Source of the DNA: a virus | Virus record (IMG/VR): IMGVR_UViG_3300006052_000012 | Span: 1 to 47,777 of that record | Length of the DNA: 47,777 bases | Reading direction: 5' to 3' (one strand) | In this document: positions 1,108 to 30,131 of the stretch, piece by piece | How the letters are laid out: each line of letters opens with the position of its first letter | Numbering within the stretch: the stretch's first letter is position 1 | Position numbers and translations under genes: made by a program | The notes under the pieces: model-generated | Seen by the model: the letters and a program-made list of their open reading frames with translations, nothing else | Told to the model about the DNA's origin: nothing | Databases searched by the model: none

Positions 1108-1572
1108 ATGAACTGGATGTTTGATCTCATAACTCTCGAAGCAAATAAGAACGGCCTCGACCCTTATTTGGTTTATGCCATTGTGCTGACCGAAACGAAT
1201 GGCAATGCTTACGCCGTCAGATACGAACCCAATTTTAAGTGGATCGTGAAGCCAGAGATGTTCGCGATTCCTCTGAGTCTCTCAATGGAAACAGAAACTC
1301 TTTGTCAGAAGATGTCATGGGGTTATATGCAGATCATGGGGGCGGTAGCCCGCCAGTATGGTTTCAAAAGCCATATCCCTGAACTCACCAGCCCTCAAAC
1401 TGGGCTCGCTTACGGCTGCCAGCATCTCGCTGCGTTGAAGAAAAAGTATCCTGAAATGTCGGATTACATCGCAGCTTATAATGCGGGATCACCTCGTAAA
1501 TACGATGGCAAATATTCAAATCAAAGTTACGTTGACAAAGTTTTGTCTCGCTATGCTAGTGTAAAAAAATGA
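1108..1572 (+). CDS. Endolysin, lytic transglycosylase (SLT domain, 154 aa)
   Basis: This protein has the hallmarks of a soluble lytic transglycosylase/goose lysozyme-like fold: a catalytic Glu in LTETNGNAYAV (E29), the GYMQIM motif at 72-77 and AAYNAGSPRKY at 122-132. It cleaves the glycan backbone of peptidoglycan. There is no obvious signal peptide, so it would need a holin or other export aid, consistent with the small membrane proteins just upstream. The length is close to a bare catalytic domain. A virion-associated role cannot be excluded, but position in the lysis block favours endolysin. The family call is firm. Confidence 0.88.
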   Translation: MNWMFDLITLEANKNGLDPYLVYAIVLTETNGNAYAVRYEPNFKWIVKPEMFAIPLSLSMETETLCQKMSWGYMQIMGAVARQYGFKSHIPELTSPQTGLAYGCQHLAALKKKYPEMSDYIAAYNAGSPRKYDGKYSNQSYVDKVLSRYASVKK

Positions 1573-2618
1573 TTCCGTTGATCCGTCCTAACATCCCGAA
1601 GCCTGGAGTCTGGGCGCCGTTCTTGGAAGAGACTTACCGCAAAGGCCAGTTCACGAACTTCGGCCATAATTATTTTAAATGTGTAGAAGACCTCCGCCGG
1701 ATCACGGGTAGATACTGCGTTCCTGTTACGAATGGGACTGCTGCGATAACGCTTGCGGTAAAACTTTTAAGGGCTAAAGGTTATGACGAAACTGTTTACG
1801 TTCCAGATTTCACTCATGCTGGTTCATTCCTTGGTGCTAGTAATGCTGGGGCTCTCAGTATCGCAATTGCACCAGTCTCAGAAAAAACTTGGACCATCGA
1901 CAGAGATAAAATCGCCCCTCTCCCAGGATCTATCATCATCGTCGTTTCACCCTTCGGATATGGCGTCGACATCCCACGCTTTGAAAGGTGGGCCGAAGAG
2001 AAAGAAGTTGCGCTGGTTTACGACTTTGCGGGGGGTTTCGGAATAGATGTCAAGAGTACGAAGTGGCCAGTTTGTCACTCATTCCACTCGACTAAAAACC
2101 TACCCATAGGTGAGGGTGGAGTTGTCTCGATGAAGGATGAATTTCATGCCGATTTGATCCGCAGGATGTCGAACTTCGAAAACGATTTAAATAGAAACAT
2201 CCTTTCAGATTGGGGTGAAAACTCCAAGATGGACGAGTTCAGGTGCTCAATTTTGAGAGCTCAATTAGCTTATGGCATGAGGAACTATGAAAACCGCCAT
2301 GTGAAAAACTCGATGTTGATTAACCTTTACGCGAAAGAATTTAATTTGAAGCACGGCGTTCTCTCTGGTTCTAGACCATCGCTTTGCGTATTGGGACATG
2401 ATCGGCTCGATGGTAGAGACTTGGAACGTGAGTTCATGATCTACGATATTACGGTGAAAAAATATTACATTCCGCTCACTGAAATGAGTGGGTTAAGCCA
2501 ATATAGTTTCGGTTTAAAAAGTCCGAAGTTGTTCAGCAATTGCTTTGCTTTTCCAACTGACGTGTCGGATAAGGAGCTTGAATGCATACTAGAAACGGGC
2601 CGCAAGATATTACGTTAG
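1569..2618 (+). CDS. DegT/DnrJ/EryC1/StrS-family aminotransferase (349 aa)
   Basis: This is a PLP-dependent sugar aminotransferase of the DegT family, which converts keto-sugar nucleotides to amino-sugar nucleotides. Visible marks are the N-terminal IPLIRPNIP, the TNGTAAITLAV cofactor-phosphate loop (54-64), VYDFAGGFG with the Asp expected to contact the pyridine nitrogen (D152), and SFHSTKNLPIGEGG with the Schiff-base Lys (K176). The gene overlaps the endolysin stop by 4 nt and the next gene by 37 nt. It starts a five-gene cassette that also holds an acyltransferase, a glycosyltransferase and a methyltransferase, so an N-acylated amino sugar is a likely product. Confidence 0.88.
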   Translation: MIPLIRPNIPKPGVWAPFLEETYRKGQFTNFGHNYFKCVEDLRRITGRYCVPVTNGTAAITLAVKLLRAKGYDETVYVPDFTHAGSFLGASNAGALSIAIAPVSEKTWTIDRDKIAPLPGSIIIVVSPFGYGVDIPRFERWAEEKEVALVYDFAGGFGIDVKSTKWPVCHSFHSTKNLPIGEGGVVSMKDEFHADLIRRMSNFENDLNRNILSDWGENSKMDEFRCSILRAQLAYGMRNYENRHVKNSMLINLYAKEFNLKHGVLSGSRPSLCVLGHDRLDGRDLEREFMIYDITVKKYYIPLTEMSGLSQYSFGLKSPKLFSNCFAFPTDVSDKELECILETGRKILR

Positions 2619-3208
2619 TCGGTGCTGGAGGGTTCGCGCGAGAAGCCTGTAATTGGGCCGAAGCTTCGACGTTCTACGTTTCTAAGTTCATCGATGAAAC
2701 TGGGAAGAACAAAGAGATTTTCGGGAAAAAAGTTTACCCATCTTTCCTGCGTTCGCTGAAGAAGGAACTCTTTTTCGCCGCTGTCGGAGATCCGAAATTA
2801 AGAGTTCAGCTCACCTCACGAGCACTCGACCATGGGCTCCAGGCAGCTCCATGCATCATCCACCCTACCGTGGTGCTGGGCCATGACGTCGTCGTTTGTC
2901 CGAACTCGATCATTTGCCCGAACGCAATTTTAACAACGAATGTTTATCTTGGCCCTGGAGCGCTCGTGAATATCGGAGTGACCATTGGCCATGATGTGAA
3001 AGTTGGCAGCTTCGTGACGTTCTCTCCTGGAGCAAATATTTCAGGCAACGTGACGATCGGCGACCTTTGCTATATCGGAACGAACGCAGCGATCCGTGAA
3101 GGGGTCAAGATTTGCGATAACGTCGTGATCGGAATGGGTTCAGTCGTCATCAAGGATATAACCGAGCCTGGCGTTTATGTTGGATGCCCCGCAAGGAAAA
3201 TGATGTGA
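2582..3208 (+). CDS. NeuD/PglD-like sugar O/N-acyltransferase (208 aa)
   Basis: The N-terminal ITLVGAGGFAREA motif (10-22) is the Rossmann-like substrate-binding domain of the NeuD/PglD family. It is followed by a left-handed beta-helix of hexapeptide repeats (roughly residues 95-195; for example VNIGVTIGHDV, SGNVTIGDLCYIG) and the usual ending PGVYVGCPARKMM. Such enzymes acetylate amino-sugar nucleotides. The start at ATG 2582 has AAGGAG at 2571-2576, 5 nt upstream, despite a 37-nt overlap with the aminotransferase. Pairing with a DegT aminotransferase is the arrangement known from bacillosamine-type pathways. Confidence 0.87.
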   Translation: MHTRNGPQDITLVGAGGFAREACNWAEASTFYVSKFIDETGKNKEIFGKKVYPSFLRSLKKELFFAAVGDPKLRVQLTSRALDHGLQAAPCIIHPTVVLGHDVVVCPNSIICPNAILTTNVYLGPGALVNIGVTIGHDVKVGSFVTFSPGANISGNVTIGDLCYIGTNAAIREGVKICDNVVIGMGSVVIKDITEPGVYVGCPARKMM

Positions 3209-3393
3209 AGACTCCACTCCAGCAGTGGTATGGCGAATGCATGCGTAAGAAGAAGCTTCAGGAGCATTGGGCTGACGGCATCATTGCGAAAGCTAAAAAA
3301 GAAGGTAAGACTCTTTTCAAATACCGCTGCGATCACTGCACTCATTGGCATGTGACGAGCAGAGAAAAACACCATAAGAGGATCGTTTTTTAA
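3205..3393 (+). CDS. Small CxxC zinc-binding-like protein (62 aa)
   Basis: I chose the GTG at 3205 because AAGGA at 3193-3197 lies 7 nt upstream and the start forms a GTGA overlap with the previous stop; an ATG at 3184 would lengthen it by 7 residues. The protein is basic and ends with YRCDHCTHWHVTSREKHH, a Cys-Cys plus His cluster that could hold zinc. Small proteins of this kind are common in phages, but no specific function is known to me. It lies between sugar-modifying genes and is translated with them. Confidence 0.65.
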   Translation: MKTPLQQWYGECMRKKKLQEHWADGIIAKAKKEGKTLFKYRCDHCTHWHVTSREKHHKRIVF

Positions 3394-4146
3394 ATGAAGT
3401 TTAAAGTCTGGGCCATCACACTCGCCTATAACGATCCTGAGATCATCGAAGAATCAATTGCCCGCTATTATGAAACGAAGCATCCAGAAGTCGAGACGCA
3501 TCACGTCCTGGTCGATGCGCACTGGCCTGTGAATTATCCTGAGACACGTCGTCGTTTAGAGGCCCTAGCAGCCAGCTACGGCCTTCATCTCATGGACCCA
3601 GGTGAAAACCTCGGCCTACATGGGAACTTCAACTGGGCGTGGTCTAGGCTCGATATCCCAGAGAACGCTGGGGTCATTGGATACGATGGTGACTCCTGGC
3701 CGTTAAATCAAGGTTGGGACATGGCTATGTGTCAAGTTTTTGTCAATGACGCGAAGGTAGGATGGATCTCCCTTTGGCACCAGCACGTCACCCGCGAACT
3801 CTACCAAGATAAAAAGCTTTTAAGTGAAGACGTCATCGGTGGTCAGAACACTGCGACACCGAAAGAAGCCTGTATGAATTCGATCTGTATGTTCCGGCAG
3901 GGATGGCTTAAGAAAATCGGGGGGCTGAAAGAGTTCAACAAATATTACGGCTCTCTCGAAATTTGTCTCTACCCGAAACTCGCTGAGCACGGACTTAAGC
4001 AAGTCTTCATGAAGGACTTCAAAGAGGAACCTCATTTTTACGACAGACAAAATCCTCTCTATAAGGAATGGAAATGGCGCACTTGTCACGTTCGGGATAT
4101 TCCTACGGACATGGAATTTGGAACATGGTTGAGGAGTAGAAAATGA
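3394..4146 (+). CDS. GT-A-type glycosyltransferase (250 aa)
   Basis: The N-terminus VWAITLAYNDP is typical of GT-A/family-2-like glycosyltransferases, and YDGDSWP (97-103) supplies the DxD motif (D98, D100) that binds the metal and nucleotide sugar. The C-terminal half contains Trp and His clusters (ISLWHQH) that may form the acceptor site. It starts directly after the preceding stop and overlaps the following methyltransferase by 4 nt. The acceptor is unknown: a modified base, a virion protein or host surface glycan are all possible. The fold assignment is good; the substrate is not known. Confidence 0.8.
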   Translation: MKFKVWAITLAYNDPEIIEESIARYYETKHPEVETHHVLVDAHWPVNYPETRRRLEALAASYGLHLMDPGENLGLHGNFNWAWSRLDIPENAGVIGYDGDSWPLNQGWDMAMCQVFVNDAKVGWISLWHQHVTRELYQDKKLLSEDVIGGQNTATPKEACMNSICMFRQGWLKKIGGLKEFNKYYGSLEICLYPKLAEHGLKQVFMKDFKEEPHFYDRQNPLYKEWKWRTCHVRDIPTDMEFGTWLRSRK

Positions 4147-4622
4147 AACTTAACTTAGGATGCGGTCCACATAAAATCGAAGGTTTTCAAAACTGGGATT
4201 TGGAGCATGGTCAAGATTTAAGAAAACCTTTTCCAATTCCATCTCAATCGGTTGAGTTCATTGTCACCGAACATTTCGTCGAGCACTTAACGAAGAGTGA
4301 AGCTATTGCATTTTTCAGAGAGTGTTACCGAGTGATGGATAGAAGCGCTATAATGCTGATCTCGATGCCTGATCTTGCGTTCCTTTGCCGAATGCATACT
4401 GAGAACAAAATACCTTATGATGGGGTTTGGAAACCGGAGAACACTTGTGACATGGTGAACGAAGGTATGCGCGAATGGGGTCATCAATATCTTTGGGATG
4501 AACCTGAGCTTTTCAAGACCTTAAGAAACATCGGATTCAGAGAAATGAAAAGGCTCGAAGAAAAACCAAGCGTTCTTGTAAGACCTTTTTGTGGTGATCT
4601 TATCGTTTCAGTTTCGAAGTAG
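4143..4622 (+). CDS. Class I SAM-dependent methyltransferase (159 aa)
   Basis: The N-terminus KLNLGCGPHKIEGFQNWDLE contains motif I (LGCGP, residues 4-8) and the acidic end of beta-2, with a post-motif TEHFVEHL similar to the family methyltransferase_11 in sugar biosynthesis clusters. It is short but complete, ending in a beta-hairpin-like tail. It is the last gene of the sugar cassette and its 3' end overlaps by 23 nt the 3' end of the convergent minus-strand gene, so no terminator fits between them. It may methylate the sugar made by this cassette. Confidence 0.8.
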   Translation: MKLNLGCGPHKIEGFQNWDLEHGQDLRKPFPIPSQSVEFIVTEHFVEHLTKSEAIAFFRECYRVMDRSAIMLISMPDLAFLCRMHTENKIPYDGVWKPENTCDMVNEGMREWGHQYLWDEPELFKTLRNIGFREMKRLEEKPSVLVRPFCGDLIVSVSK

Positions 4623-5889: not shown

Positions 5890-6436
5890 GTTTAATACCT
5901 CTATCAGGAGATAATGCATTTATGGTGCCATTCCCCTCTCGTTCCCGAATCTCGTCAGCGCGGGTGAGGGCTTCTTTTGAAATAAGTTTTGAATCCCAAT
6001 CACTCATGCTTCTAGCTAACCAATCACGATCGCCATACTTTACACCCTCTCTGTAGAGATTCTCTTTCTCTGGCTTTAGTTTCAACCCAGATCCATTAGC
6101 ATATATGGTCAACCCATCCCTCAGCACTTGGTTCTCGGAGCGGAGGCGGTCACTCATAGCAGTCAAACTGTCAGGATAAAAAAAACAGTCTTCATGATGT
6201 CTAATCTCGCCACCAGTAAAAATGTGACAGCCAGTTTCACACTCGATTTCATTCACATGCTTTATACGCTCCAGCTCGGCTTTGAGTTCTTCTTTTTCTC
6301 TCAGCAACCTATTGATCTCGGTTTTAGCGTCAGTTCCCCAGGCGTATTTGATCCATTCATTGACTCTCTCTTCAACCTGTTGATGGATATATTCTGACAT
6401 TTTTTTACTGGCTTCGTTTAATATTTCCACGTTCAC
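5882..6436 (-). CDS. Coiled-coil early protein (184 aa)
   Basis: I place the start at GTG 6436 because AGGAG lies just upstream and the GTG shares one base with the TAG stop of the HNH gene. Residues about 15-65 form a probable coiled coil (INRLLREKEELKAELERIK). The centre has CETGCHIFTGGEIRHHEDCFFYP, a Cys/His group that may bind metal, followed by another helix (DRLRSENQVLRDGL). Proteins of this composition are common and uncharacterised in phage early regions. Confidence 0.62.
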   Translation of the reverse strand: MNVEILNEASKKMSEYIHQQVEERVNEWIKYAWGTDAKTEINRLLREKEELKAELERIKHVNEIECETGCHIFTGGEIRHHEDCFFYPDSLTAMSDRLRSENQVLRDGLTIYANGSGLKLKPEKENLYREGVKYGDRDWLARSMSDWDSKLISKEALTRADEIREREGNGTINALSPDRGIKHE

Positions 6437-6714
6437 TACCTTCTCCTCAGTTTGATCTGCCCACAGACCTCTGTTAAAATCCACCCCTTGATCCACTCAA
6501 GTTCGTATCTCACCGCTGGATGCTTGAAACAGAAACTAACGATTCCGATATCGTGTTGCTGCCTGTGATGTTGACGGCACAATGGCATTAGGTTCCAAAG
6601 CTCCGCAGGTCCGCCAGTCTTCTTCGTTTGAATATGAGCGGCATCACTTGGCGTTTTTCGGCACACTAAGCAAGGTAGATTTCGGACTTCTGCTTCGACG
6701 CTCAGCTTTTTCAA
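6436..6714 (-). CDS. HNH endonuclease-like protein (about 92 aa)
   Basis: The core LPCLVCRKTPSDAAHIQ...LWNLMPLCRQHHRQQHD has the CxxC, AH, and C..HH..H pattern of compact HNH nucleases found in phage recombination and early regions. No ATG exists in this frame. I favour TTG 6714, preceded by AGAGG at a rather long 12 nt; a longer frame from TTG 6768 would overlap the upstream gene by 125 nt. The start is thus uncertain, but the nuclease domain is complete either way. It may act in DNA recombination, packaging or host DNA degradation. Confidence 0.72.
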   Translation of the reverse strand: MKKLSVEAEVRNLPCLVCRKTPSDAAHIQTKKTGGPAELWNLMPLCRQHHRQQHDIGIVSFCFKHPAVRYELEWIKGWILTEVCGQIKLRRR

Positions 6715-7006
6715 TTGATTTTTTCGCCTCTTCTTGTCTGAAATGATCTTCTTCAATGTAAGAATCAATCAGATCGAGACAGGAGTTTTCTACAAATTCA
6801 ACCCAAGAGCAATCGATTTTTTCAAGGATCTGCTCAGTTTTCATTTTCAATCCGCCATCGATCCTGGCTTGGACGAGTAGCTTTTTAAACTCTTTATCTG
6901 GTTCCTTCTTACTCATGCGTTTGATTCTGTTCATTTGTTTTTCCTTCTCTCTTTCGTGGTTCAGTTGAAGTGCGTAATCTGCGAAACCTTCGTAATTTTT
7001 AAGCAT
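6644..7006 (-). CDS. Hypothetical basic/helical protein (120 aa)
   Basis: ATG 7006 has GAGGTAT about 9 nt upstream and overlaps the previous gene by 8 nt. The protein is basic and helical at the N-terminus (NHEREKEKQMNRIKRMSKKE), acidic in the middle (CLDLIDSYIEEDHFRQEE), and basic at the end. The 3' part overlaps the HNH frame. I do not recognise a family. Confidence 0.6.
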   Translation of the reverse strand: MLKNYEGFADYALQLNHEREKEKQMNRIKRMSKKEPDKEFKKLLVQARIDGGLKMKTEQILEKIDCSWVEFVENSCLDLIDSYIEEDHFRQEEAKKSIEKAERRSRSPKSTLLSVPKNAK

Positions 7007-26593: not shown

Positions 26594-28000
26594 ATGGCAG
26601 ACGCATACTTCGCAGGACAAATTGCGCATCTCGCACCAACGTCTTGTACAATTGATTCTACCCCACCTACGTTCGCAGGGATCACGAGCGTCACACCTCA
26701 AAGCGACGGTTCTTTCCTTATGGGTTGGGCTGCCGCAACTTCAACGAAAACTCCTGTCAGATATGAGATGTACGTTTCCTTGGGTGTTGTCACAGCAGCA
26801 GCTCTCTTCGTAACTGCGAACCGAGTAACGATTGCCCCTGGATCGTTGACCTCTTTAAGAGTCGGTTGGCTCATAGATCAGGTCACTTACTTCATCAATG
26901 GATTGACTTACACATTCGGGATCAGAGCAGTTGACTCTCAAAACTACACAGATTCAAACACGGTCATTCTGACATCGACAGCTATCGGATCAGGTAATAT
27001 CGGTGGAGTCATCCAAGCAACTGAAGTTTTACTCGCAACTCAAGCGACATCTCTCTCAAACTCCGCAACTGGAATCGCTGCTTCAAACGTCGCTTTAGCT
27101 AACGATGCTGCATCTCTAAATGTCTCTGCTACTGGAATCGCTGCGACAGCCGTGGCGCTGGCTAACGACCATACTAATTTCGCTGCCGACCATGTGAATT
27201 TCCAAAATGATCATTCGAACTTTCAATCTGACCACTCAGCATTCCAAGGTGACCATAGCAATTTTCAAAGCGATCACGCGGCTGCTACCGGAGATCACGC
27301 AGCTTTTGTGGTTGATCATTCGAATTTCGGAACTGACCACGCGAATTTCATTTCCGACCATCAAGCCGCTACCGGAGATCACGCGGCCTTTGTGGTTGAT
27401 CACGGAAATTTCCAATCAGATCATTCTTCTTTCCAAGGAGACCATACGAACTTCTCTAACGACCATGCGAACTTCGTTTCCGATCACCAGGCAGCTACCG
27501 GAGACCATGCGGCTTTCGTAGTGGATCATAATAATTTCCAAAGCGATCATACGAACCTGAACCAAGACCACGTCAACATCGCGGCAACTGAAGTTCTATT
27601 GGCGGCTGACGAACTCAATATCAAAGCTTCTGCTACCGGACTCTCAGCAACTCAAGTAGCTCTTGCGAATGACGCGACATCCATCACGAACTCTGCGACA
27701 GGCATCAACGCATCGCAAGTAGCTCTCGCAGCTGACGTGGCGGCTCTGAGCCCAATTGCTACCGAAATCTCTGTGGCAGCAGGACAGGTAACGAACTCAG
27801 CTACAGGAATTGCTGAAACCGAAGTCCTACTCGCGCAAGATATCGTGAACTTGAATACCATCGTAGGAAATGCCGCAAGCATCTCTGGAGATATTAAAGA
27901 CGCTGCGTTACAATTTGCTAACAGCAATGTGAGTGCAATTGTGACAGCTGAAGACGAAATTACTGGAACCGTTGAGGAGGAGGTAGAAGATGGCAATTAA
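26594..28000 (+). CDS. Fibre-like protein: FN3-like domain plus long heptad-repeat rod (468 aa)
   Basis: AAGGGGAA precedes the ATG. Residues 20-130 form a fibronectin type III-like domain (STPPTFAGITSVTPQSDGSF; YTFGIRAVDSQNYTDSNTV). From 140 a rod begins with repeats of the SATGIAASNVALAND type, then residues 192-326 are twenty exact heptads each containing DH, usually with Phe three residues later, then more SATG repeats. Reading His and Phe as core positions gives a continuous, probably trimeric coiled coil. It could be a neck whisker or side fibre. The C-terminus is acidic. Confidence 0.7.
   Translation: MADAYFAGQIAHLAPTSCTIDSTPPTFAGITSVTPQSDGSFLMGWAAATSTKTPVRYEMYVSLGVVTAAALFVTANRVTIAPGSLTSLRVGWLIDQVTYFINGLTYTFGIRAVDSQNYTDSNTVILTSTAIGSGNIGGVIQATEVLLATQATSLSNSATGIAASNVALANDAASLNVSATGIAATAVALANDHTNFAADHVNFQNDHSNFQSDHSAFQGDHSNFQSDHAAATGDHAAFVVDHSNFGTDHANFISDHQAATGDHAAFVVDHGNFQSDHSSFQGDHTNFSNDHANFVSDHQAATGDHAAFVVDHNNFQSDHTNLNQDHVNIAATEVLLAADELNIKASATGLSATQVALANDATSITNSATGINASQVALAADVAALSPIATEISVAAGQVTNSATGIAETEVLLAQDIVNLNTIVGNAASISGDIKDAALQFANSNVSAIVTAEDEITGTVEEEVEDGN
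27167..27571 (+). repeat. Twenty tandem 21-bp repeats encoding Asp-His heptads
   Basis: The codons for DH recur every 21 nt without interruption for 20 units. Larger near-identical blocks are superimposed: the stretch encoding AATGDHAAFVVDH appears at residues 230, 258 and 300, with very similar DNA. The pattern is in frame and explained by protein structure; there are no spacers as in CRISPR. Confidence 0.85.
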
Positions 28001-28562: not shown

Positions 28563-30131
28563 ATGATTAACAGGCTTTCGGATATCAGAGCAGCACTTGG
28601 CGAGGCTGAATGGACACAGCTCGAAAAGCGCTCGAAGAACATCCAAAAGACCGAGAACGATTTCCTCGTTAAGAGCGATGAAGTTTTCAATAAGATCGCA
28701 GATCAAGTGGCTTCTGAACTCTCAGACGGTAAGCCATTCAAGGTTGAAGACCATTTAGATCGCATCGAAGAACTGCTCATCGAACACATGTTTGTGACGA
28801 TGGCTGACGCTTTCGAAGATGTAAAAAAAAAGCCCGAACATCGCTTAGCCGAAGCTCCGAAACCAAAGGTTCCAAAGACTTTGAAAGAGGTCATGAGATC
28901 ATGGGATCTCTGGCGTAAGAAGAAGTCAGCCGCTCCCATCACGAAGAGACAGCGCGAACTCTTCAACCGCATCAAGACCGAATATAAGGCAAAGCTCCAA
29001 GAGTTCTATATCGGCAACCGTGATGCGATCCAAGCCGGAACCATCAAGAGAACTGAAATAGCCGAGAAGGTCAAAGAAGTTACGAAGGCTCCGGTTGCGC
29101 GAGTTCAAACGATTATCCGCACCGAGACAACGACTTACGATAACCAAGTCCGACGCCAGTTCTATGACTCGAACGATGCGATAGTTGGATACCTTTTTCT
29201 AGCCATCAGGGATCATGCGACAACCCCTTGGTGCAGGTCTAGGCATGGGAAAGTATTCTTGAAAGGCACGCGCCTTCTCGATATAAACACGCCGCCATGC
29301 TTCATTGGAAATAGTCTCGTTTTAACGCTCGATGGATGGAAAGAGATTGCGTGCATTGGAACTGCGGACTATGTATGGACTCATGAGCAAAGATGGAGAA
29401 AAGTCGAAGAAGTACACATTACGTACAAGAGATCAGTCGATCTATTTCAAATCGGATCAGCCTTGGCTACCTCCAATCACCCTTACTTTGAAAGAGGCAT
29501 TGGCTTTGTTCAAGCACAGCACTTCAGGTCAGAAAAGGGTCTATGCGCAAGCTCTATTAACCTGCGCTCATTGCTCAAAGCAGCGATGGGTTCCTTGGTG
29601 CAAGAGAGATCGAAAATTCTGCTCAAGTCGCTGCAACTCTTTGCATCTAGCAAAATATCAAAATGGTCCTGGTCATCCAAGTTGGAACGGTGGAAGGAAA
29701 AGACTGAAGTATGGTTACATGGGTATAAGTATGCCAAACCATCCGAGATCCAATTCCCAAGGATACGTTCTGGAGCACATAGTTGTTGCGGAGAAGATGA
29801 TAGGCAGATCATTAACTACTCAGGAGATCGTTCACCACATCAACGAGATCAAGACCGACAATCGTCCAGAGAACTTACAGGTGATGACGAGAGCGGATCA
29901 CAGTCGGTTACACCGTTTGTCATACTTAAAAAACAAAAAGTCTATAACCTAGAAGTCGCTGAAGACAACACTTACTATTGCGGCGGTTATCTCGTACATA
30001 ATTGTCATTGGAACTGCAGAAGCGAGATCGTACCTCTTTCCAAGTACAATCCTGCCCATATGAAACTGCTAAAAGACCTTTCAAGGCAACCAATTGGCCT
30101 AGTGCCATTGCCAAAAGAGTGGCGACGCTGA
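28563..30131 (+). CDS. MuF-type minor head protein interrupted by an intein (522 aa precursor)
   Basis: The host protein is a SPP1 gp7/MuF-like head morphogenesis factor: IIRTETTTYDNQVRRQFYDS (184-203), RDHATTPWCRSRHGK (216-230) and, after the intein, CHWNCRSEIVPL (481-492). Residues 246-480 are an intein starting at C246 in PPCFIGNS and ending at N480 in LVHN before C481. Removing it rejoins INTPP to CHWNC, the conserved MuF motif, giving a 287-residue protein. MuF binds near the portal and is injected or packaged in the head. The whole frame is open. Confidence 0.88.
   Translation: MINRLSDIRAALGEAEWTQLEKRSKNIQKTENDFLVKSDEVFNKIADQVASELSDGKPFKVEDHLDRIEELLIEHMFVTMADAFEDVKKKPEHRLAEAPKPKVPKTLKEVMRSWDLWRKKKSAAPITKRQRELFNRIKTEYKAKLQEFYIGNRDAIQAGTIKRTEIAEKVKEVTKAPVARVQTIIRTETTTYDNQVRRQFYDSNDAIVGYLFLAIRDHATTPWCRSRHGKVFLKGTRLLDINTPPCFIGNSLVLTLDGWKEIACIGTADYVWTHEQRWRKVEEVHITYKRSVDLFQIGSALATSNHPYFERGIGFVQAQHFRSEKGLCASSINLRSLLKAAMGSLVQERSKILLKSLQLFASSKISKWSWSSKLERWKEKTEVWLHGYKYAKPSEIQFPRIRSGAHSCCGEDDRQIINYSGDRSPHQRDQDRQSSRELTGDDESGSQSVTPFVILKKQKVYNLEVAEDNTYYCGGYLVHNCHWNCRSEIVPLSKYNPAHMKLLKDLSRQPIGLVPLPKEWRR
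29298..30002 (+). mobile_element. Intein in MuF with an out-of-frame homing endonuclease (235 aa)
   Basis: Splicing block A is CFIGNSLVLTLDGWKEI (C246), block B is ATSNHPYF with the TxxH pair, and blocks F/G are VYNLEVAEDNTYYCGGYLVHN followed by Cys. The residues needed for splicing (N-terminal Cys, block B His, penultimate His, terminal Asn, +1 Cys) are all present. The middle, about residues 315-452, has no endonuclease motifs in this frame. Instead the same DNA read in the +1 frame encodes an HNH nuclease. Insertion is in the most conserved MuF motif. Confidence 0.85.
29506..29952 (+). CDS. HNH homing endonuclease nested in the intein, +1 frame (about 148 aa)
   Basis: In the +1 frame relative to MuF the protein has an N-terminal zinc finger (LTCAHCSKQRW; RDRKFCSSRCNSLH), the linker GPGHPSWNGGRK, then the HNH domain YVLEHIVVAEKMIGRSLT, EIVHHINEIKTDNRPENLQ and ADHSRLHR. 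The start is most likely TTG 29506, 8 nt after AAAGAGG (29491-29497); the frame is open back to an ATG at 29332, but that stretch has no nuclease homology and no ribosome-binding site. It stops at 29950-29952, exactly where intein block F begins. It should cleave intein-free MuF alleles. Confidence 0.8.
   Translation: MFKHSTSGQKRVYAQALLTCAHCSKQRWVPWCKRDRKFCSSRCNSLHLAKYQNGPGHPSWNGGRKRLKYGYMGISMPNHPRSNSQGYVLEHIVVAEKMIGRSLTTQEIVHHINEIKTDNRPENLQVMTRADHSRLHRLSYLKNKKSIT

Follow-up and report, generated by a model that had tools for sequence, protein, structure and literature searches.

Is the HNH endonuclease found inside the intein of a phage head gene a protein of its own, encoded out of frame with the intein that surrounds it? 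In textbook inteins, the homing nuclease is a domain of the spliced-out protein. A sequence-only reading of the window (here, the whole stretch of 47,777 nucleotides of the IMG/VR viral contig IMGVR_UViG_3300006052_000012) had proposed a different arrangement for the MuF gene, namely, an intein that looks competent for splicing and contains the HNH nuclease as a separate, out-of-frame gene. This proposal is supported by the present analysis; both Hint and HNH profiles match the locus.

The MuF gene and its intein

The contig has head genes of a tailed phage, encoding the terminase, the portal, and the major head protein. The MuF frame (hereafter frame 0) is open for 522 codons and contains all intein splicing motifs, as had been described. 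It matches Phage_Mu_F (1e-6, Pfam, in the extein), TIGR01641 (6.6e-13), and phrog_241, head morphogenesis (6.4e-11). Its parts are as follows.

28563..30131, plus strand: frame-0 ORF, MuF/SPP1 gp7-type minor capsid protein with an intein, 522 aa
28563..29297, plus strand: N-extein, C-terminal end ...INTPP (sequence; TIGR01641 with exteins joined)
29298..30002, plus strand: intein in frame 0, with Cys1, block B TSNH, penultimate His, and terminal Asn (PT-HINT, PDB search, alignment)
29298..29522, plus strand: Hint-N, blocks A and B (AF2 residues 1-75; pLDDT 82-91 up to residue 40, dropping towards 75)
29523..29927, plus strand: frame-0 linker, predicted disordered spacer overlapping most of the HNH gene (pLDDT <50, residues 76-210)
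29928..30002, plus strand: Hint-C, blocks F and G, ...YNLEV...LVHN (AF2 residues 211-235; TIGR01443)
30003..30131, plus strand: C-extein from Cys+1 (CHWNCRS...), stop included (sequence; TIGR01641 with exteins joined)

The intein corresponds to MuF residues 246-480 (235 aa). The splicing residues C246, T303-S-N-H306 (block B), YNLEV, H479-N480, and C481 (Cys+1) are present, and C1, H61, H234, and N235 of the intein are invariant across nine aligned inteins, that of the window and eight further ones. Excision of residues 246-480 was expected to restore MuF, and it does: the TIGR01641 match rises from 49 bits in the interrupted protein, where it ends at profile position 96, to 66 bits with the exteins joined, covering positions 14-108 of 109. 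The predicted spliced MuF protein has 287 aa.

The Hint profile scores of the window intein are below the curated cut-offs: PT-HINT (Pfam) matches at 9.4e-6, and TIGR01443 is marginal (0.06), the values for its relatives L003 and L038 being 2.8e-5 and 3.9e-5. In the AF2 model of the frame-0 intein, the Hint ends are confident (residues 1-50 and 211-230), and its PDB matches are nearly all inteins, with the gp41-1 intein at the top. Given the predicted Hint fold, the splicing residues, and the continuity of the exteins, the element qualifies as a class 1 intein and presumably splices. Profile searches of the frame-0 protein gave no match to HNH or any other endonuclease, which bears out the earlier remark that the intein center lacks endonuclease motifs in this frame.

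The family phrog_28563 (98 aa, function unknown) matches window positions 29802-30020 (frame-0 residues 414-486, 8.8e-6), spanning the linker, Hint-C, and the C-extein. The C-terminal half is perhaps a separate gene in some phage, possibly a split intein. Elsewhere in the window, a 468-aa protein with many short DHxxF-type repeats and without a PHROG match (26594-28000) is overlapped by a repeat-driven ORF in another frame (27207-27521). A small ORF on the minus strand (6436-6768), by its look a free-standing HNH-type protein, overlaps both adjoining ORFs. At one contig end, a run of ORFs (1569-4622) resembles aminotransferase, acyltransferase, glycosyltransferase, and methyltransferase.

The nested HNH gene

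The +1 frame is open from 29332 to 29952 and, as the sequence-only reading had it, encodes a complete HNH nuclease with a zinc finger.

29383..29952, plus strand: nested HNH endonuclease gene, frame +1, 189 aa, likeliest start ATG 29383 (HNH_3; codon-position switch)
29506..29508, plus strand: alternative TTG start (sequence; AAAGAGG at 29491-29497)
29563..29634, plus strand: zinc-finger-like CxxC...CxxxC of the HNH protein (cysteines conserved in L038)
29776..29907, plus strand: HNH_3 catalytic core, EH...VHHIN...DNRPENL (HNH_3 profile; deleted in L003)
29950..29952, plus strand: TAG that ends the nested gene, arising from the Leu codon in block F (YNLEV) of Hint-C (sequence)

The product matches HNH_3 (E 1.6e-12) and phrog_20891 "HNH endonuclease" (1.2e-30), and the residues H132, H151, H152, N160, and N164 are invariant in the alignment. 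Since the Foldseek search with the HNH model was weak (I-HmuI ranked ninth, E 1.7), the HNH assignment rests on sequence profiles. The ORF ends at intein block F as had been noted, its TAG lying inside the block F leucine codon, and equivalent TAG or TAA stops occur in L038 and in the PolA inteins described below.

The start previously proposed, TTG 29506, is not upheld. The +1 constraint begins upstream of it and fits ATG 29383, the equivalent of which is found in three of three MuF inteins (the window, L003, and L038). Though this ATG has no convincing Shine-Dalgarno sequence, +1 translation most likely starts there rather than at the TTG. The element is not a canonical homing-endonuclease intein, in which the endonuclease is a domain of the intein polypeptide.

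Selection on two reading frames

The openness of frame 0 was compared with a null in which the HNH protein is fixed and synonymous codons are redrawn from the phage codon usage (20,000 draws). In the window's element, frame 0 has 0 stops versus 11.6 expected, and 0 of 20,000 draws were open (P<5e-5, indicative only, like all P-values of this analysis, owing to phylogenetic non-independence). The earlier estimate of a chance near 0.1% for the open frame was therefore too lenient. For each MuF element 10-12 frame-0 stops are expected and none is observed; the null for L038 with its own codon usage gives P=5e-5. Among PolA inteins, L043 has 0 frame-0 stops versus ~11 expected, and the others have 0 versus 5-11 (P from 0 to 0.007). 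Random openness of frame 0 is rejected by these synonymous-codon nulls for both MuF and PolA inteins.

The suggested examination of constraint in both frames was also made, and the codon-position signal passes from frame 0 to +1 and back to frame 0 at the borders of the nested gene. In the MuF elements, the substitution rate peaks at frame-0 position 3 both upstream of 29383 and downstream of 29950; in 29506-29904, the fastest position is frame-0 position 1, that is, the third position of the +1 frame. Across 29383-29505, a segment containing block B, constraint is also seen at the third positions of frame 0 (Fisher P 0.002-0.005), and the identity in frame 0 is higher than under the synonymous-shuffle null (z 3-5). 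For the linker, frame-0 identity equals this null in the two more distant pairs. Because the constraint and identity patterns differ in this way, we conclude that Hint-N is doubly coding and that the linker is a spacer that has only to be kept open. At 29383-29505, two proteins would be co-selected on the same bases, with the nested gene overlapping the catalytic Hint domain.

Relatives of the MuF intein

An independent contig, L002, is identical in sequence over the whole gene. L003 (46% identity) and L038 (36% identity for the frame-0 intein, 54% for the +1 nuclease) have inteins at the same MuF site; both contain the HNH in +1 and are thus relatives with the same nested arrangement, as had been sought. 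The third frame is full of stops in the window, L003, and L038. The HNH is intact in the window and L038; in L003, its catalytic middle is deleted and frame 0 is still open. Besides a failure of the profiles, two observations had been named beforehand as speaking against the nested gene. The first, an in-frame nuclease with identical flanks, occurs in none of the relatives found. The second, an indel or assembly error, is excluded by the identical second contig together with the diverged relatives that have the same frames. No intein-free allele of this MuF gene was recovered among the relatives found; hence, it is the occurrence of the MuF element in diverged genes that speaks for its mobility.

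Searches of isolate phages by tblastn gave nothing useful with MuF and only distant Hint matches with the intein. The A1 profile scan recovered only the two already known MuF loci, and a pattern scan of genome contigs for the MuF intein junction produced chance matches only; the viral match L036 was likewise a chance match. In Vibrio phage 1.265.O (L134, 1221-3314), the product annotated only as "hedgehog/hint" looks from its sequence like a MuF-like head protein. Its intein, in which no HNH was detected, is inserted a few residues downstream of the site used in the window. In Streptomyces phage BoomerJR (L030, 1157-1881), the part resembling the window HNH covers the end of gp69 together with gp70, an annotated HNH endonuclease; the upstream similarity is in another frame, possibly representing a broken HNH gene.

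Nested HNH genes in polymerase and terminase inteins

The nested arrangement is real in the MuF intein, but it is not isolated, as the same design is seen in PolA and terminase inteins. A motif search identified L043, in which a DNA polymerase A gene carries an intein with HNH_3 in +1 (DNA_pol_A 1.6e-76, Intein_splicing 1.7e-8, HNH_3 3e-11). With its HNH as a query, six more loci were obtained, all +1-nested in PolA inteins; plasmids gave no relative of the PolA-nested HNH. A pattern scan based on Hint motifs alone returned 70 loci. Among those with a detectable HNH, it is in +1 at 17 loci (15 distinct), all PolA, and in +2 at 26 loci (23 distinct), which are terminase inteins; an in-frame HNH was seen at none of the 70. 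L093, L095, L112, and L110, the four +2 loci examined with Pfam, encode large terminase subunits, as does L130; the remaining +2 loci were assigned to terminase by eye from the extein. By eye, the Hint-motif matches L042, L044, L045, and L046 are other inteins, in which no nested HNH was recognized.

The substitution rates of the PolA inteins at frame-0 positions 1/2/3 are 0.41/0.34/0.64 in Hint-N, 0.54/0.36/0.28 in the nested gene, and 0.26/0.15/0.59 in Hint-C. The codon-position evidence for +1 covers three MuF and 13 PolA sequences. In the terminase HNH cores (0.43/0.68/0.51), position 2 is the fastest, as expected for +2. In the six PolA nested genes examined, a Shine-Dalgarno sequence and then an ATG, GTG, or TTG directly follow block B, and the stop, TAG or TAA, is formed by the block F leucine codon.

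A terminase intein with a +2 HNH is also present in a Rhodobacteraceae phage record and in Tetrasphaera phage TJE1 (L132, HQ225832.1, 870-3056), where the HNH ORF (1994-2908) is unannotated. Two PolA inteins, L051 and L052, are near-identical, and the nested HNH of L051 has VHRID for VHHID with frame 0 open, suggesting a recent loss of the endonuclease. The 155-aa PolA intein of L076 (1501-1965) retains ~54 nested-HNH codons behind a strong Shine-Dalgarno sequence and looks like a decay step towards a mini-intein.

Origin of the nested nucleases

In the tree of HNH cores, the PolA-nested HNHs join the HNHs of group I introns from phage polymerase genes in one clade (100/99), outside of which fall the MuF-nested and the in-frame portal-intein HNHs. 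The insertion sites in the polymerase are about 18 nt apart: GRLSSxNPNL|QNIP for the introns and GRLS|C..PNLQNIP for the inteins. These findings agree with an entire endonuclease gene, directed at this motif, having entered a mini-intein, an event that would have taken place separately in the MuF and PolA lineages at least; transfer in the opposite direction is compatible with the data as well.

On balance, we favor the view that the nesting of endonuclease genes out of frame is a general architecture of phage inteins and has evolved repeatedly. Whole homing endonuclease genes with their own start signals would move among group I introns, non-splicing sites, and mini-intein linkers that share a target motif. 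A nested gene would then be held in dual coding by the need for an open intein frame.

Comparison with known systems

The in-frame HNH inteins of phage portal genes (L011-L018, L022, L024, and L025) likewise have an HNH_3-family nuclease between Hint-N and Hint-C, but it is part of the same polypeptide, whereas the MuF HNH has an overlapping gene to itself. Dassa et al. reportedly described, in 2009, split inteins whose halves are separated by a free-standing endonuclease ORF. There, too, the endonuclease is a separate protein beside the Hint halves, but the host gene is broken, while MuF is one continuous frame. Group I introns of phage polymerase genes resemble the MuF element in having a separate HNH ORF within a splicing element; they differ in that they are RNA-spliced and their ORF need not share bases with a second coding frame.

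The closest published case is only partly similar. The ShiLan domain is a hidden HNH in mycobacteriophage DNA methylases, in the third frame, with a GTG start and no RBS; no intein or intron splicing was found, and the insert is expected to be retained in the protein (Arsenault, Gosselin and Gogarten 2025, PMC11855218). In both cases an out-of-frame HNH lies in a stop-free insertion that leaves the frame of the host gene open. However, a complete frame-0 Hint domain surrounds the MuF nuclease, whereas the ShiLan insertion has no splicing element. Among isolates, the ShiLan HNH is the closest relative of the L038 HNH and one of the closest of the MuF-nested HNH. For an out-of-frame HNH insertion as such, there is therefore a published precedent (PMC11855218), but one without an intein.

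Gosselin et al., to whom PMC11855218 refers on overlapping reading frames of actinobacteriophages, may have described endonucleases lying out of frame within inteins; as far as that citation goes, the MuF and PolA cases differ in being uncultured viral contigs outside PhagesDB. A 2025 bioRxiv preprint on non-canonical actinobacteriophage inteins (10.1101/2025.01.02.630785) may overlap in concept. In the rest of the literature, as far as it was searched, no account was found of an endonuclease encoded out of frame within an intein.

Expression of the nested gene and alternative explanations

We consider it very probable that an HNH_3 homing endonuclease gene entered the linker of a mini-intein in another reading frame and gives rise, by its own translation, to a separate polypeptide. 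The sequences themselves provide the two open frames, the catalytic residues, the selection on +1, the purging of frame-0 stops, and the recurrence in PolA and terminase inteins. From these we infer splicing, internal initiation, cleavage, and homing. Ribosomes in frame 0 would produce the precursor of MuF and intein, from which the intein would splice itself out, leaving the 287-aa MuF. Ribosomes initiating inside the gene in +1 would produce the separate HNH nuclease, which would cut intein-free MuF genes, and repair would copy in the whole cassette of intein and nuclease. Homing may then be under translational control independent of splicing. The HNH alone decays while frame 0 stays open in L003, where the core is deleted, and in L051, where a catalytic-motif His is replaced by Arg.

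A ribosomal frameshift from frame 0 into +1, yielding a MuF-N/Hint-N/HNH fusion and no free protein, is improbable. It would agree with the +1 constraint reaching into Hint-N (29383-29505) and with ATG 29383 having no clear Shine-Dalgarno sequence. However, the frame depends on the family (+1 in MuF and PolA, +2 in TerL), so that no single slip serves all, and the PolA nested genes have Shine-Dalgarno sequences and start codons at precisely the points of the codon-position switch; inspection of the region by eye revealed no slippery site. Another alternative is that the HNH is a phage nuclease with another role, such as packaging, that is carried by the intein and is not a mobility enzyme. In its favor, phage packaging involves HNH proteins, and the genes for MuF and TerL both belong to the head. 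We regard this as quite unlikely, since the nested HNH family varies with the host gene, the PolA version is related to homing nucleases of introns with the same target motif, and loss of the HNH core is tolerated in L003.

The damaged HNH cores of L003 and L051 might also point to a frozen accident, that is, a decaying relic of a formerly in-frame endonuclease domain that was shifted by indels, with frame 0 open by chance. Such an origin is very unlikely in view of the long purifying selection on +1 seen by codon positions in three MuF and 13 PolA sequences, the significance of frame-0 openness (P<5e-5), and the intact HNHs of the window and L038. Finally, removal of the insert as RNA, with a group I intron carrying an HNH ORF and an incidental frame-0 reading, is scarcely credible: related HNHs do reside in group I introns of phage polymerase genes, but frame 0 encodes an entire Hint domain that has every splicing residue and folds like an intein in the prediction, and it is under selection in Hint-N and Hint-C. 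The insert has no Rfam match, a weak negative since Rfam also missed the pol introns in L055 and L057.

Implications

If the nested gene is translated on its own, homing and splicing are split over two proteins from one DNA stretch, and therefore each could be tuned or lost separately. An intein could degrade its own nuclease without harming splicing, as L003, L051, and L076 suggest. The shared clade and near-identical target of the PolA-nested and intron HNHs offer a testable route for the acquisition of endonucleases by inteins. Nested genes escape standard annotation, for instance, in the isolate Tetrasphaera phage TJE1. Since PolA and terminase inteins use their DNA twice in the same manner, the arrangement looks general rather than accidental.
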